Part shown: positions 15,048-47,298 of the stretch, piece by piece
Layout: each line of letters begins with the position of its first letter
Numbering within the stretch: position 1 is the first letter of the stretch
NCBI GenBank assembly: GCA_031267685.1
Contig: JAIRYV010000068.1
Coordinates: 1 to 64,000, forward strand
Origin: Treponema sp.
GTDB lineage: Bacteria > Spirochaetota > Spirochaetia > Treponematales > Breznakiellaceae
DNA length: 64,000 bases
Direction of reading: 5' to 3'
Notes under the pieces: model-generated
What the model saw: only the letters and a program-made list of their open reading frames with translations
Told to the model about the DNA's origin: nothing
Databases searched by the model: none
Position numbers and translations under genes: made by a program

Positions 15048-15209
15048 AGTTTACCTCCTTCATAGTTTCTTACGCTTCACGCATGTACTATATGTAGCTT
15101 AACTTATTTTTTTCTAATCGTCAATAGGTTTCTCTAAAATATTTTCCATCGCCTCATTATTTTCTGTTTGATAGAGATGCTCTAGTCATTGAGAGAAGAC
15201 TCTCTTACT

Positions 15210-15480
15210 AAGAGTCCTCTCTTAGCCACCAAGAGTCCTCTCTTGGCGACTAAGAGTCCTCTCTTGGCGACTAAGAGTCCTCTCTTAGCGACTAAGAGTC
15301 CTCTCTTAGCGACTAAGAGTCCTCTCTTGGCGACTAAGAGTCCTCTCTTAGCGACTAAGAGACCTCTCTTGGCGACTAAGAGTCCTCTCTTGGCGACTAA
15401 GAGTCCTCTCTTGGCGACTAAGAGTCCTCTCTTGGCGACTAAGAGACCTCTCTTGGCGACTAAGAGTCCTCTCTTGGCGA
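15210..15480. repeat. 21-bp tandem array, right copy (13 units)
   Basis: Thirteen units containing AAGAGTCCTCTCTT followed by (G/A)GCGACT, the reverse complement of the array at 1-165. It ends 55 bases before pmbA/tldE. One plus-strand frame is open throughout and would encode a TKSPLLA heptad, but it has only a TTG start without a ribosome site. The rest of the gap 15048-15534 shows an A/T-rich stretch and no gene. Confidence 0.95.
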
Positions 15481-15534
15481 CGGTGAATGCACATCTGAGT
15501 TAGGTGGAGCTATTATTAGAGTAAAGGAGAAACA

Positions 15535-30668: not shown

Positions 30669-30824
30669 GACCGCTGGTGAATGTTTTGCTTACTAAGTGC
30701 AGCAACTTTGTTGCCGACAAGTCAGCGTTTCATTACATGCGCTCATCTTTTGGCCGTATATCTCCAAGTCCACCTTTCAGCAAAACTCCCTCTTGACGGC
30801 AAACTCTTGAAGCGACGCGTTCTT

Positions 30825-30929
30825 ACACATATGTATAGCGCCTTTACAGACATGTGTAGCTCCTTTACACATATGTATAGAGCCTTTACACATATGTGTA
30901 AAGCTTTTACAGACATGTGTAGAGCCGTT
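30825..30929. repeat. 21-bp tandem array, five units
   Basis: Five units of 21 bp, alternating ACACATATGT(A/G)TA and ACAGACATGTGTA openings, each ending GC(C/T)...TT. The core ACACATATGTGT is palindromic. It lies between the two divergent chemoreceptor genes. The rest of the gap (30669-31312) also holds a doubled TGAGTATTGTTAT at ~30952-30976 and the short repeat at 31109; I see no gene in it. Confidence 0.92.
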
Positions 30930-31108
30930 ACACGCCATTCTGCTTATGTTTGAGTATTGTTATTGAGTATTGTTATACCGAAGGAATTTACCGAGAAACT
31001 GTATCAACTTGATAAACCTATGTTTTCCTAGTACCTTGTTCAGGCTAAAGGGAAGGGTTCAATAAGAGAGCGCGAAGTGAGGGAAGGCGAAAAAGGGAAA
31101 CATCCTTG

Positions 31109-34984: not shown

Positions 34985-35128
34985 ACTTGGCGTTTAAATG
35001 CTTCTGTGTGTCTGGCACTGTTGGATGTCTGACACTCAAAGCCCACGCTAAACGTTGAGTTACTGTTGTCGGCATTTGCAATGGAAAATAAGAAGTTTAT
35101 TCTGTATATTAAAAGACAAGGAGCTATT

Positions 35129-42615: not shown

Positions 42616-44733
42616 CTACAGTTTAATGACTCCAACTGATTCAAGGTTAATGTCTGTTACCAGTTCCGGCACTGAAAGCACTACGACCTCTGGCAGTTCC
42701 CGCTCGGTCAGTGATTTGACGAGATAACGCGCCGCTTCAGAACAGAGAATGACTGGGAACCAGCCGCGATCCTGCATCGCAGTAACCGCACGCGCCACTC
42801 CGTTAATCCACGCTTTCTGAGACCCAGGGTCCAGCGCCGCAATAACACCGCCACTCTTGGTTTCCACCCTGCTTTCTACAATTTTCTGTTCCAGGGCCGG
42901 GTCAATCGTTAATACATGCAGAACGCGATTTTCGTCGAGATAGCGGTCGCAGAGCTGGCGTCCCAGTGCCTGCCGTGCCTTCTCGGTGAGGAAACGAGTG
43001 TCCCGCGTAACCGGCGCAAAGTCTGCAATGGCTTCCATAATGCCAACCATGTTCCGAATCGAAACCTGTTCTTTAAGCAAGTTCTGCAAAACTTTCTGTA
43101 TCTCACCGAGATTCAAGACCTTCTGCGTATCATCAACAACCGCCGGATACTCCTTCCTCAAGGTTTCAAGTATAGCCTGTGTTTCCTGCCGGTCAAGAAT
43201 CTCTGCCGCGTGCCGTTTGATGATTTCCGTAAGGTGCGTGGCGATAATCGAGGGCGAATCCACCACCGTATAGCCCGCACGCTCGGCTTCATCGCGCTTG
43301 TCCTCACCAACCCACAGCGCGGGCAGGTTAAAGGCTGGATCACGGGTTTTTTCACCAGTAATTTCTTCCCGTACAGTTCCCGGATTGATACACAAATAGT
43401 GGCCCATACGTATCTTGCCGCGTCCAACCTCAACACCACGAATCTTGAAGCAGTAACCAGATGGTTCCAGCAAAATGTTATCAATAATACGGATTTTAGG
43501 AATCACCAGCCCCAGTTCCAGTGCTGATTGCTTTCTCACGCCCTGTACGCGCTCCAGCAATTCCGCGCCCTTATCCTTATCAACAAGGGGAATAAGCCCA
43601 TAACCAAGTTCCAGAGACAGGGGGTCTAACGGCACGATAGGGGACATCTCGCCAGTATCGCCACCGCCCTGGGGCTTGTGGGAGCCTGCGGTCTTACTCA
43701 TCATCTCGTTGAACTGCGCCGCCTTCTTCTTCCTCGTCTGAATAGTATAGGCGTAAAAGCCAATCAGTATGGATAGGGGAATCAGCACATACCAAGGGAA
43801 TCCGGGCAAGAGGGCAAAGCCCAGCAAAACCGCCGCACAAATCCAGTAAATCCGCGCATCGCGGGTAAACTGCTCCGAAACCGTGTTTCCCAAGTCACCA
43901 GGCGCAGCAGAACGGGTAACAACGATACCCATCGCAACTGACACCAGTAGAGCCGGCAGCTGGGACAAAAGCCCGTCGCCAATGGTTAAGGCAAAGTAGG
44001 TACCAGCAACCTGAGTGATCGATTCGCCTCGAAACGCCATGCCAGTGATGATGCCACCTAAAAGGTTTACCACAGTAACAAAGATGCCAAGTTTAACATT
44101 GCCGGAGATGAACTTACTTGATCCGTCCATTGCCCCATAAAAATCAACCTCGCGTTGAAGGTCTTGTTTCCGTGCCTGAGCCTCTTCCTGAGATATGGAG
44201 CCGGAGTTGAACTCAGCCTCTATCGCCATCTGCTTACCCGGCATGGCGTCAAGGGCGAATCGCGCCGCGACCTCTGACACCCGCGTCGCGCCCTTGGTTA
44301 TAACCACCATCTGCATTGCGATAATCACAATAAAGATGATAAAGCCAATGACAATGCCTTCAAGTCCGCCAGCTCCAACAACAAATGTAGAGAAGGCGCG
44401 TATCATTCTACCGTCAAAGGCCGGGCCTTGCGTCAAAATGAGCCGCGTGGAAGAGATGTTCAGTGCTAAGCCGAACAGCGTAACCACAAGCAGGATCGTT
44501 GGAAAGAGGGTGAAGTCAGTTGCCTTCTGTGTATACAGTACGATCAGCAGAATGAGCAGTGAAAACATAAGGTTCAATGCCATGAGGGTATCAAGCAGAA
44601 TCGTGGGCAAGGGAATCACAATCATCATTATGACAAGAACTACCCCTAGGGCGATGAGTACATCGTTGGATAGCTTGAACGGAGGAGAATTTTTTGTATC
44701 AGAGCCGGCGCCGGCTCTTGCTAAGTCAGCCAT
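42616..44733 (-). CDS. flhA: flagellar export apparatus protein FlhA
   Basis: 705 residues: about eight membrane segments (~25-325), the FHIPEP-type block between them (ATRVSEVAARFALDAMPGKQMAIEAE), then a large cytoplasmic domain (~360-705) that docks substrate-chaperone complexes and ends near LESVGVIKL. The internal ATG 44733 is chosen because TAGGAT lies eight bases before it; the ATG six codons earlier has no such site. Near its start the DNA has a perfect 18-bp palindrome. Confidence 0.95.
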   Translation of the reverse strand: MADLARAGAGSDTKNSPPFKLSNDVLIALGVVLVIMMIVIPLPTILLDTLMALNLMFSLLILLIVLYTQKATDFTLFPTILLVVTLFGLALNISSTRLILTQGPAFDGRMIRAFSTFVVGAGGLEGIVIGFIIFIVIIAMQMVVITKGATRVSEVAARFALDAMPGKQMAIEAEFNSGSISQEEAQARKQDLQREVDFYGAMDGSSKFISGNVKLGIFVTVVNLLGGIITGMAFRGESITQVAGTYFALTIGDGLLSQLPALLVSVAMGIVVTRSAAPGDLGNTVSEQFTRDARIYWICAAVLLGFALLPGFPWYVLIPLSILIGFYAYTIQTRKKKAAQFNEMMSKTAGSHKPQGGGDTGEMSPIVPLDPLSLELGYGLIPLVDKDKGAELLERVQGVRKQSALELGLVIPKIRIIDNILLEPSGYCFKIRGVEVGRGKIRMGHYLCINPGTVREEITGEKTRDPAFNLPALWVGEDKRDEAERAGYTVVDSPSIIATHLTEIIKRHAAEILDRQETQAILETLRKEYPAVVDDTQKVLNLGEIQKVLQNLLKEQVSIRNMVGIMEAIADFAPVTRDTRFLTEKARQALGRQLCDRYLDENRVLHVLTIDPALEQKIVESRVETKSGGVIAALDPGSQKAWINGVARAVTAMQDRGWFPVILCSEAARYLVKSLTERELPEVVVLSVPELVTDINLESVGVIKL
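44701..44718. other. perfect 18-bp palindrome in the flhA 5' coding region
   Basis: AGAGCCGGCGCCGGCTCT is identical to its reverse complement and lies ~15-32 bases into flhA. It could fold near the ribosome-loading site, or simply reflect the Ala/Gly codons. Confidence 0.5.
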
Positions 44734-44800
44734 ACTGTTAATCCTATACATTAGACGACACGTTCTCGAGTACGCGCCGATATTGTTTCGTAGTTCGCCC

Positions 44801-46504
44801 CTACGGACGTCTTCGCCTATCTTCGTTTATCTTCATCACTCGCGCTAGCACCTCTGCAACAACCTGCCAATATTTCGCCGGCACAAGATCACCTACTTTA
44901 GTTTCGGCGTAAAGCGCCCGCGCCAACGGTTTGTTTTCCACAATAGGCACACCACTATCTGTTGCCAGACGGCGTATCAGAAAAGCCATCTCATCCTCGC
45001 CTTTTGCCGTAACCTGCGGAGCGCCCCGCGTCTGCTCATACTCCAGTGCCACCGCAAAGTGGGTCGGGTTTGTTATCACGACATCAGCCTTTGGCACGTT
45101 CACCGCCATGTTCTGAGTCAACAGTTCCCGCATACGGGCGCGAAGCCTACTCTTAATCAGTGGGTCGCCCTCGTACTGCTTCCGTTCTTCCTTGACCTCC
45201 TGTTTGGTCATTTTAAGGGATTGCATATATTGATAGCGCTGAAACAGGTAATCAGGAATGGATAGTGCCAACAGCAACAAGGCTGATATAAGAAGCATTT
45301 TGATCGCCAGCCACGCCACCGTGCTTATGCCAGTCCACAAACTAGCGGTTTGCAAATTTACCAATAACTCTATCTTAGAGCGAATAACAAAAAAAGCAAC
45401 TCCTCCTATTATCGCCATTTTTACAATGGATTTTAAGAGATTAAAGATACCTTCAGCTGAAAAGATACGTCCGAAGTATTTGCCGAATTTGGGCAATATA
45501 CGGTCGAACTTGGGTGTGAGCGGTTTTGTGGTAAACAAAATACCAACCTGAAGGAGGTTAGCGAATATGCCTGCAATCATGCCCACGATGATAAGAGGCA
45601 AGCCCAGCCGCACATAGTAAAAAAGCGCCATAGCGGGAACAATCGGGTCTTTAGTAGGATCAAGCTCCATAGCGCGGAGCAGGTAGAAGCGCAGCATCTC
45701 CACGCAGGTTTGCAACATGGATGGCGCCAGAAACAAGAGTGTCAGCGCGGGCAACAGCAGCACCAGTGCGGAGATCAGTTCCTGACTCTTGGCAACCCGT
45801 CCTTCTTCTTCGCGTGCCTTACGGATGCGTTCCTCAGTCGGTTCCTCAGTACGTCCCTCGTCTTCCGGGTCGGCAAACCATTGCAAGTCCATCTTCAACG
45901 GAGGACGTGGATGTACCCGAAGTTTCGTCGTGAAACACCAAGTAAGTCTATGGCTTTTTTCCGTATCCAGAGACGTACAGAAGCAGTTTCCCTGTGCTAT
46001 TGATGAATCGCTTTTTACTATTGATGAACAGCTCTGTGCTATTGATGAATAGCTTTTTACTATTGGTGAATAGCTCTGTGCTATTGGTGAATCGCTTTTT
46101 ACTATTGGTGAATAGCTCTGTGCTATTGATGAATAGCTTTTTACTATTGGTGAATAGCTCTGTGCTATTGGTGAATAGCTTTTTACTATTGGTGAATAGC
46201 TCTGTGCTATTGATGAACAGCTTTTTACTATTGGTGAATAGCTCTGTGCTATTGATGAACAGCTCTGTGCTATTGATGAACAGCTTTTTACTATTGGTGA
46301 ATAGCTCTGTGCTATTGATGAATAGCTTTTTACTATTGATGAATAGCTCTGTGCTATTGGTGAATAGCTTTTTACTATTGATGAATAGCTCTGTGCTATT
46401 GATGAATAGCTTTTTACTATTGGTGAATAGCTCTGTGCTATTGATGAATCGCTCCTCTGTGTTAGTGAGCAGCTCAGAGACCTCATGGCTGCGGGCTTTT
46501 TCAC
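44801..46504 (-). CDS. flhB: flagellar export switch protein FlhB with N-terminal repeat extension
   Basis: 567 residues if translated from GTG 46504, which overlaps the fliR stop as GTGA and has GGAGG six bases upstream. Residues ~16-171 are a heptad repeat (QSYSSIV-KSYSPIA-like) encoded by the 21-bp array. The canonical protein begins at MDLQWFADPEDEGRTEEPTE (ATG 45892, no Shine-Dalgarno). It then has four membrane segments and the cytoplasmic domain with the self-cleaving NPTH (ITNPTHFAVALEY), so export switching should work. A core-only protein from 45892 would be 363 residues. Which start is used is not proven. Confidence 0.88.
   Translation of the reverse strand: MKKPAAMRSLSCSLTQRSDSSIAQSYSPIVKSYSSIAQSYSSIVKSYSPIAQSYSSIVKSYSSIAQSYSPIVKSCSSIAQSCSSIAQSYSPIVKSCSSIAQSYSPIVKSYSPIAQSYSPIVKSYSSIAQSYSPIVKSDSPIAQSYSPIVKSYSSIAQSCSSIVKSDSSIAQGNCFCTSLDTEKSHRLTWCFTTKLRVHPRPPLKMDLQWFADPEDEGRTEEPTEERIRKAREEEGRVAKSQELISALVLLLPALTLLFLAPSMLQTCVEMLRFYLLRAMELDPTKDPIVPAMALFYYVRLGLPLIIVGMIAGIFANLLQVGILFTTKPLTPKFDRILPKFGKYFGRIFSAEGIFNLLKSIVKMAIIGGVAFFVIRSKIELLVNLQTASLWTGISTVAWLAIKMLLISALLLLALSIPDYLFQRYQYMQSLKMTKQEVKEERKQYEGDPLIKSRLRARMRELLTQNMAVNVPKADVVITNPTHFAVALEYEQTRGAPQVTAKGEDEMAFLIRRLATDSGVPIVENKPLARALYAETKVGDLVPAKYWQVVAEVLARVMKINEDRRRRP
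45991..46456. repeat. 21-bp tandem array within the 5' part of flhB, ~22 units
   Basis: Two unit types, one with CTGTGCTATTG(A/G)TGAA and one with TTTTTACTATTG(A/G)TGAA, mostly alternate so that a 42-bp super-repeat appears. Three of the six frames are open through the whole array. The sequence is unrelated to the arrays at 1, 15210 and 30825 but has the same period. Confidence 0.95.
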
Positions 46505-47298
46505 AGTGCGCCTCCGAGGTAGGCGTAGAGGTTCTCGATGTTTTTGAAGCCAGCATCAATGACGCGACTGAAGGCTTCAACCATGAATGGCAGAGATGTG
46601 TATATCAGGACAAAGGCCACGGTGATGGATATGGGGAAACCTTCGGAGAGTATGTTTACCTGCGGGGCAGCTTTGGAGATGAGGCCCGTGGTGAGCGAGG
46701 TGAGAAAAAGCGTACCGAGTATGGGCATGGAAATTATCATGGCGTCGAGAAAGAGTCCGCTCAGGCCAGTGAGGAGCATGGAGATAACATGCTCACGGCC
46801 AGCCGCAATGTCCACAATGTTAATCGTCTGAATTGAGCGCCAGAAGCCGCCAAGAAACAGTTCCTGAAAGCCGCCAACTGACACAAAGACGAGCATGGCG
46901 ACAATGTTGAGGTACTGACCGAGAAGCGGGTTTTCCGCCTGAGCCAAAGGGTCAAAGGTTTCTGACGCGCCAAAGCCCATTTGTAAGGAAAAGAACTGAC
47001 CAGCAGTGGAAAAGGCTGAGAAGATGAGGGTGAGATAAAATCCAAGAATGATGCCAATCAGCCCTTCTCCGATAATGAGATACACAAAGGTAAGGTTATA
47101 CGCTGATACGTTCCAGTTGCTTGCTAGGGCTGTGGGGAAGGCGCTATACGCGGCAAAGCCCGCGAGCGCCAGCTTTACCACCTGAGGGATCGAGTCCGAG
47201 GACATGAGTGGCGCGGTCTCGATCATGGCAAGCGCCCGTGCCGCGACAAGCAGGAACGCTGGCCATGCGCGTAGTACCTCATTGAGCATCTCTTCCAT
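46501..47298 (-). CDS. fliR: flagellar export protein FliR
   Basis: 265 residues, about six membrane segments; with FliP and FliQ it forms the export gate. LVAARALAMIETAPLMSS at the N-terminus, GEGLIGIILGFYLTLIFSAFSTAGQFFSLQMGFG and DPLAQAENPLLGQYLN are family blocks. Stop overlaps the GTG start of the extended flhB; starts three bases after fliQ. Confidence 0.94.
   Translation of the reverse strand: MEEMLNEVLRAWPAFLLVAARALAMIETAPLMSSDSIPQVVKLALAGFAAYSAFPTALASNWNVSAYNLTFVYLIIGEGLIGIILGFYLTLIFSAFSTAGQFFSLQMGFGASETFDPLAQAENPLLGQYLNIVAMLVFVSVGGFQELFLGGFWRSIQTINIVDIAAGREHVISMLLTGLSGLFLDAMIISMPILGTLFLTSLTTGLISKAAPQVNILSEGFPISITVAFVLIYTSLPFMVEAFSRVIDAGFKNIENLYAYLGGAL

Follow-up and report, generated by a model that had tools for sequence, protein, structure and literature searches.

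The repeat-filled leader of FlhB in a termite-gut Treponema is probably a translated, disposable propeptide

The tandem array that lies in frame in flhB of this Treponema sp. is probably a translated and disposable propeptide, invaded by satellite DNA, which the protease Prp would remove and which would be absent from mature FlhB. This reading is drawn from the sequence of the window (the whole stretch of 64,000 nucleotides that was analysed) and from comparisons with ~400 genomes, those of congeners and others of the phylum.

Organization of the flhB Gene

The flagellar genes fliP, fliQ, fliR, flhB and flhA form an operon on the minus strand of the window. The flhB ORF (44801–46504, minus strand) begins with a GTG, counts 567 codons (567 aa) and remains open through the array into FlhB. 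It is followed by flhA (42616–44751, minus strand), the next flagellar gene of the operon, an ORF named from its sequence. The fliR ORF (46501–47298, minus strand), whose 3' end aligns with fliR of relatives, ends with a TGA (46503–46501) that overlaps the GTG at 46504. A Shine-Dalgarno sequence, GGAGG, can be read six bases upstream of this GTG (46511–46515, minus strand). The same GGAGG is found in the congeners G001 and G002, and GGAGA in G003. The sequence-only reading had described this coupled start, and also an internal ATG at 45892 without a Shine-Dalgarno sequence; both descriptions are correct, as none was found in the bases before that ATG (CCTCCGTTGAAG-ATG).

Three parts can be distinguished in the gene, all on the minus strand. 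The leader, a predicted propeptide (45893–46504), is an open frame of 204 codons counted from the GTG. It is closed by MDLQWF (45875–45892), the predicted Prp recognition motif, with a predicted cut between 45875 and 45874 and with its ATG as an alternative start. The predicted mature FlhB (ADPEDEGRTEE..., 44801–45874) contains the membrane part and the NPTH autocleavage domain. The protein belongs to the FlhB family, with matches to PF01312 (residues 217–556, 4e-114) and TIGR00328 (residues 216–562, 2e-116) and with NPTH present; Pfam and NCBIfam thus confine FlhB proper to residues 216–562. Pfam matches to YqfQ and Talin in the repeat were below the cut-off and were rejected as low-complexity. 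An AlphaFold model from the single sequence was uninformative (mean pLDDT 49.8).

The 21-bp Array

The array (45992–46454, minus strand) consists of 22 tandem units of 21 bp, which carry the dyad GCTATT-CATC-AATAGC. Tandem Repeats Finder gave a period of 21, 22.0 copies, a score of 597 and zero indels. An in-frame array of this kind, in a frame open from the GTG into FlhB, had been noticed in the sequence-only reading and is borne out here. That reading also suggested that FlhB may have a heptad tail of ~150 residues. The length agrees with the array, which makes up ~154 of the 204 leader codons, but the leader as a whole is longer and two unit types alternate, so that the true repeat is one of 42 bp or 14 residues.

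Across the array, stops are also absent from two of the three sense frames and from at least one antisense frame, and 52% of all frames are open in the 24 arrays of the window genome with a period divisible by three. The open frame is therefore unsurprising by itself: a 21-bp unit that contains no stop necessarily stays open when repeated. The unit GCTATTSATSAATAGC, searched in the window genome and four congeners, is confined to the flhB array. The leader has a codon score of −0.25, under that of every gene window of 462 nt (mean 0.18, minimum −0.12).

The fliR-flhB Junction in Congeners and Relatives

The end of fliR and the FlhB core align at ~89–91% among the genus's five genomes, and the DNA between them is replaced. 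The alignable flanks reach 13 nt past the GTG and stop 12–18 nt short of the ATG. The window genome (G000) has 22 units of 21 bp at this junction and G001 has ten units of a different 23-bp sequence. G003 has only two units of 23 bp (an array of 48 bp), and G002 degenerate repeats only; the DNA in between is short in these two (149 nt in G002, 102 nt in G003). In G004, yet another 23-bp unit is found, at a contig end. G000 and G002 have the coupled GTG in the flhB frame; in G003, and in G001 as assembled, it lies in another frame. An assembly error is an unlikely cause of the frame in G003, whose array is only 48 bp long; in G001, the copy number, and hence the frame, could result from one. 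A comparison of arrays between strains had been proposed earlier, with frameshifts or stops at normal motility as the outcome that would speak against a repeat tail. The comparison did reveal different arrays at the junction, and the frame break, the sequence half of that outcome, does occur in the sister species G003 and in G001 as assembled. The leader is without conserved sequence. With unrelated units in the congener arrays, and with two congeners whose coupled GTG is not in the flhB frame, the repeat peptide is not conserved, and the junction does not hold a conserved coding repeat of the VNTR type.

Of the junctions outside the genus, 23 were resolved, and each shows an in-frame start that coincides with the end of fliR or closely follows it, with a leader of 3–82 residues before [MI]DLQWFA. 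The coupled start is therefore ancestral and real. One of these leaders, in G030, also holds 21-bp repeats. Across the family, the FlhB leader is hypervariable, ranging from 3 to 204 residues, and the boundary [MI]DLQWF/A is almost invariant. The out-of-frame GTG in G003 and G001 indicates that coupling is not the whole story within the genus.

Translation of the leader is also suggested by the junction arrays. In the 23-bp arrays of G001 and G004, all three frames of the sense strand are without stops, as compared with two of 32 strands in similar arrays at other sites of the window genome; from few cases, this suggests that ribosomes pass through them. Given that the coupled in-frame start is general and that the sense strand of the junction arrays contains no stops, the leader is probably translated.

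The best of the alternatives is that the array is an untranslated spacer, with FlhB starting at ATG 45892 (MDLQWF...) and the in-frame GTG being a relic. The frames of G003 and G001, the noncoding-like codon score, and the ATG directly 5' of DLQWF in all five genomes of the genus speak for it. However, this ATG is the one without a Shine-Dalgarno sequence, and the family-wide coupled start and the stop-free junction arrays are at odds with a relic. Nor is the ATG diagnostic, as Met or Ile is common before DLQWF in the family; a genus-specific start at this position was considered and rejected, Met being found there in other genera too. An untranslated spacer is thus unlikely.

Far less probable is a contingency switch, in which the number of 23-bp units would shift the coupled start in and out of the flhB frame and so phase-vary flagellar export in the genus. 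The ATG of MDLQWF would then act as a weak fallback, and the window's 21-bp array would represent the switch locked in its on state.

The Boundary Motif and Prp

The boundary MDLQWF/ADPEDEG matches the site proposed for Prp in FlhB and L27, [DN]LQ-aromatic-F/A, and lies between leader and core. In a 2022 review of Prp, the protease that processes L27, the FlhB of T. pallidum is given as FIIDLQWF'AAE, and the proposal that FlhB is a Prp substrate in flagellated bacteria is credited to Wall et al. (PMC9405229). The same review notes that spirochetes possess Prp and lack a long L27. No experimental proof of FlhB cleavage by Prp was found in the literature, where the cleavage stands as a proposal.

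The window genome encodes Prp (G000:C108:18579-18884; PF04327, 2e-13, 51.5 bits against a cut-off of 27), and its translation has the GHA and CAA motifs. The gene adjoins rpmA, whose L27 product is short, begins with MARKRGG and has no leader. Given the predicted site and the presence of Prp in the genome, mature FlhB should begin at the Ala codon at 45874.

In three loci (L164, L165 and L171), a tandem pair of LQW-type sites was observed in the FlhB leader (e.g., AIDIQWFVANG...AIDLQWFAAEDEG), resembling a duplicated Prp site.

The Prp site also bears on the view put forward in the sequence-only reading, that mature cytoplasmic FlhB carries a functional repeat tail of some 150 residues and of variable length. 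The array is in frame, stop-free, of 21-bp period and behind a good start. Yet no congener conserves the peptide in its hypervariable leader, the 23-bp units at the junction break the frame, the codon usage is noncoding-like, and a predicted cleavage site separates leader from core in a genome that encodes the protease. Such a tail is highly improbable.

Distribution of Prp and FlhB in the Phylum

Among 392 genomes of the phylum, all at least 90% complete except the window genome, 259 have both FlhB and Prp, two have Prp only, 75 have FlhB only and 56 have neither. Five relatives without FlhB are all without Prp, and all keep L27. The FlhB-only genomes include 31 of family f7, most likely the Borreliaceae, in which the protease is known but scores weakly, and 20 of genus g43.

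Within g43, FlhB aligns through DLQWF in all 40 Prp-positive genomes, and in all 19 informative Prp-negative ones it starts with M-AAEDEG, which is the predicted cut. In 36 further genomes, the 13 that are motif-less are all Prp-negative, and 21 of the 23 that bear the motif are Prp-positive. As predicted, the motif goes and the core start is encoded directly where Prp has been lost (19/19 in g43, 13/13 at the named loci). In a tree of the FlhB core, the loss of Prp and motif falls in one clade, and the co-loss therefore counts as one strong event and not as 32 independent ones.

The members of this Prp-less clade with an FlhB starting M-AAEDEG are mostly rumen treponemes (L058, L061, L064-L067, L070-L075, L078, L173-L191). 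Four Prp-negative genomes (G308, G333, G118 and G423) have a leader with a QWF or IQLF motif, and in G016, the motif and L27 are present and Prp was undetected. The motif in Prp-negative genomes is perhaps due to a missed Prp or to incomplete or unassembled sequence. In families f41 and f55 (L197, L198, L200, L201), where Prp was likewise undetected, the leader is kept and the boundary is degenerate (GLYF, LVLL or SVFF before AAEDEG).

A Genome-Wide Class of Satellite Arrays

The flhB array belongs to a genome-wide class of satellites, by class features and not by shared sequence. In 20 sampled stretches of the window genome (374 kb), 40 arrays with periods of 20–24 or 42–48 bp were counted, corresponding to ~107 per Mb, or ~75 per Mb at four or more copies. 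The commonest periods are 21 and 23. The arrays are mostly intergenic, and 34 of the 40 lie outside coding-like frames. Sampled contig stretches from congeners and from one further genus (G030) also contained the class, though several of these contigs had been chosen for their array matches. None was found in 60 kb of each of two complete relatives. A literature search on such arrays in termite spirochetes returned nothing.

Three further intergenic 21-bp arrays of this kind are present in the window. Those at 1–165 and 15207–15481 share one unit, inverted relative to each other over a distance of 15 kb, and could mediate inversions; similar inverted pairs occur in L121 (7428/18834) and L128 (1/8170). 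The third (30823–30933) is missing from the orthologous site of G004. Conversely, G004 has 27 copies of a 21-bp unit (L238:11009-11570) at the site orthologous to window positions 34990–35102, where the window has no array. Arrays thus come and go between congeners. Many contig ends of the window assembly are tandem arrays (L115, L117, L118, L121, L122, L129, L130, L132 and L134), some with 5- or 7-base units in 17–23 copies, and arrays appear to break the assembly.

That the array acts at the DNA or RNA level, as a hairpin ladder, in pausing or in the processing of mRNA at the fliR-flhB junction, is highly improbable. In favour of it, units of the class carry longer dyads than their shuffled versions do (mean stem 5.03 vs. 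3.51, sd 0.15), and the array RNA is more stably folded than shuffled RNA (z −6.9, inflated by repetition). Against it, G002 and G003 have little array in their 149 or 102 nt, and the flhB dyads show no compensatory pair changes (115 pairs unchanged, 17 single breaks, 0 double), such counts being blurred in other arrays by slipping registers.

Comparison with Known Systems

Prp-processed N-terminal leaders have been described for long L27 and for the capsid and scaffold proteins of phage 80alpha, and proposed for FlhB (PMC9405229). As in these substrates, a hydrophobic-[DN]LQ-aromatic-F/A boundary separates a leader from a conserved core, and the Prp gene lies beside rpmA. In contrast to the L27 leaders of ~9 residues, the leader here reaches 204 residues with a satellite array, and L27 is short in the window genome. 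The arrays resemble the noncoding satellites of Leptospira interrogans (PMC6749651) in being scattered, multi-copy and intergenic, with some periods not divisible by three. They differ in unit size (21–24 bp here, 46 bp there), in the turnover of units between congeners and in density, the ~75 per Mb at four or more copies here standing against 9.7 per Mb reported for L. interrogans (PMC6749651) with different search criteria.

With coding VNTRs, i.e., contingency and surface-protein repeats, the array shares an in-frame unit divisible by three; unlike them, it has unrelated 23-bp arrays as its counterparts in congeners, and its peptide is not conserved. Rickettsia palindromic elements are palindrome-bearing repeats that are tolerated in frame in genes, with dispersed copies kept in the proteins. 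The repeats described here are in tandem, and in a leader that is predicted to be removed.

Proposed Origin and Processing of the Leader

Taken as a disposable propeptide, the array can be explained as follows. In these termite-gut spirochetes, flhB would be made as a precursor, with ribosomes leaving fliR starting at the coupled GTG. The sequence of the leader would be irrelevant, as its lack of conservation and of stops suggests. The cysteine protease Prp would cut after DLQWF, before the Ala; the motif, the presence of the gene and its co-loss all point in this direction. As the leader would be discarded, fast-turning satellite arrays of 21–24 bp may invade it, expand and accumulate. The array of the window genome would have its period divisible by three and be in frame by chance, which gives a leader of 204 residues. 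Mature FlhB would begin at the Ala (45874) from either GTG 46504 or ATG 45892, and the repeat would be absent both ways. In species whose GTG lies in another frame, the ATG of MDLQWF would have to be the start, perhaps, as a tentative suggestion, by re-initiation.

With its satellite filling, this leader puts the Prp-FlhB idea to an extreme natural test, and comparative support for Prp as the FlhB protease of spirochetes comes from the treponeme clade in which Prp and leader were lost together. If this is true, spirochetes would use Prp as a protease of flagellar assembly, and the annotated N-termini of FlhB throughout the phylum would differ from the mature ones.
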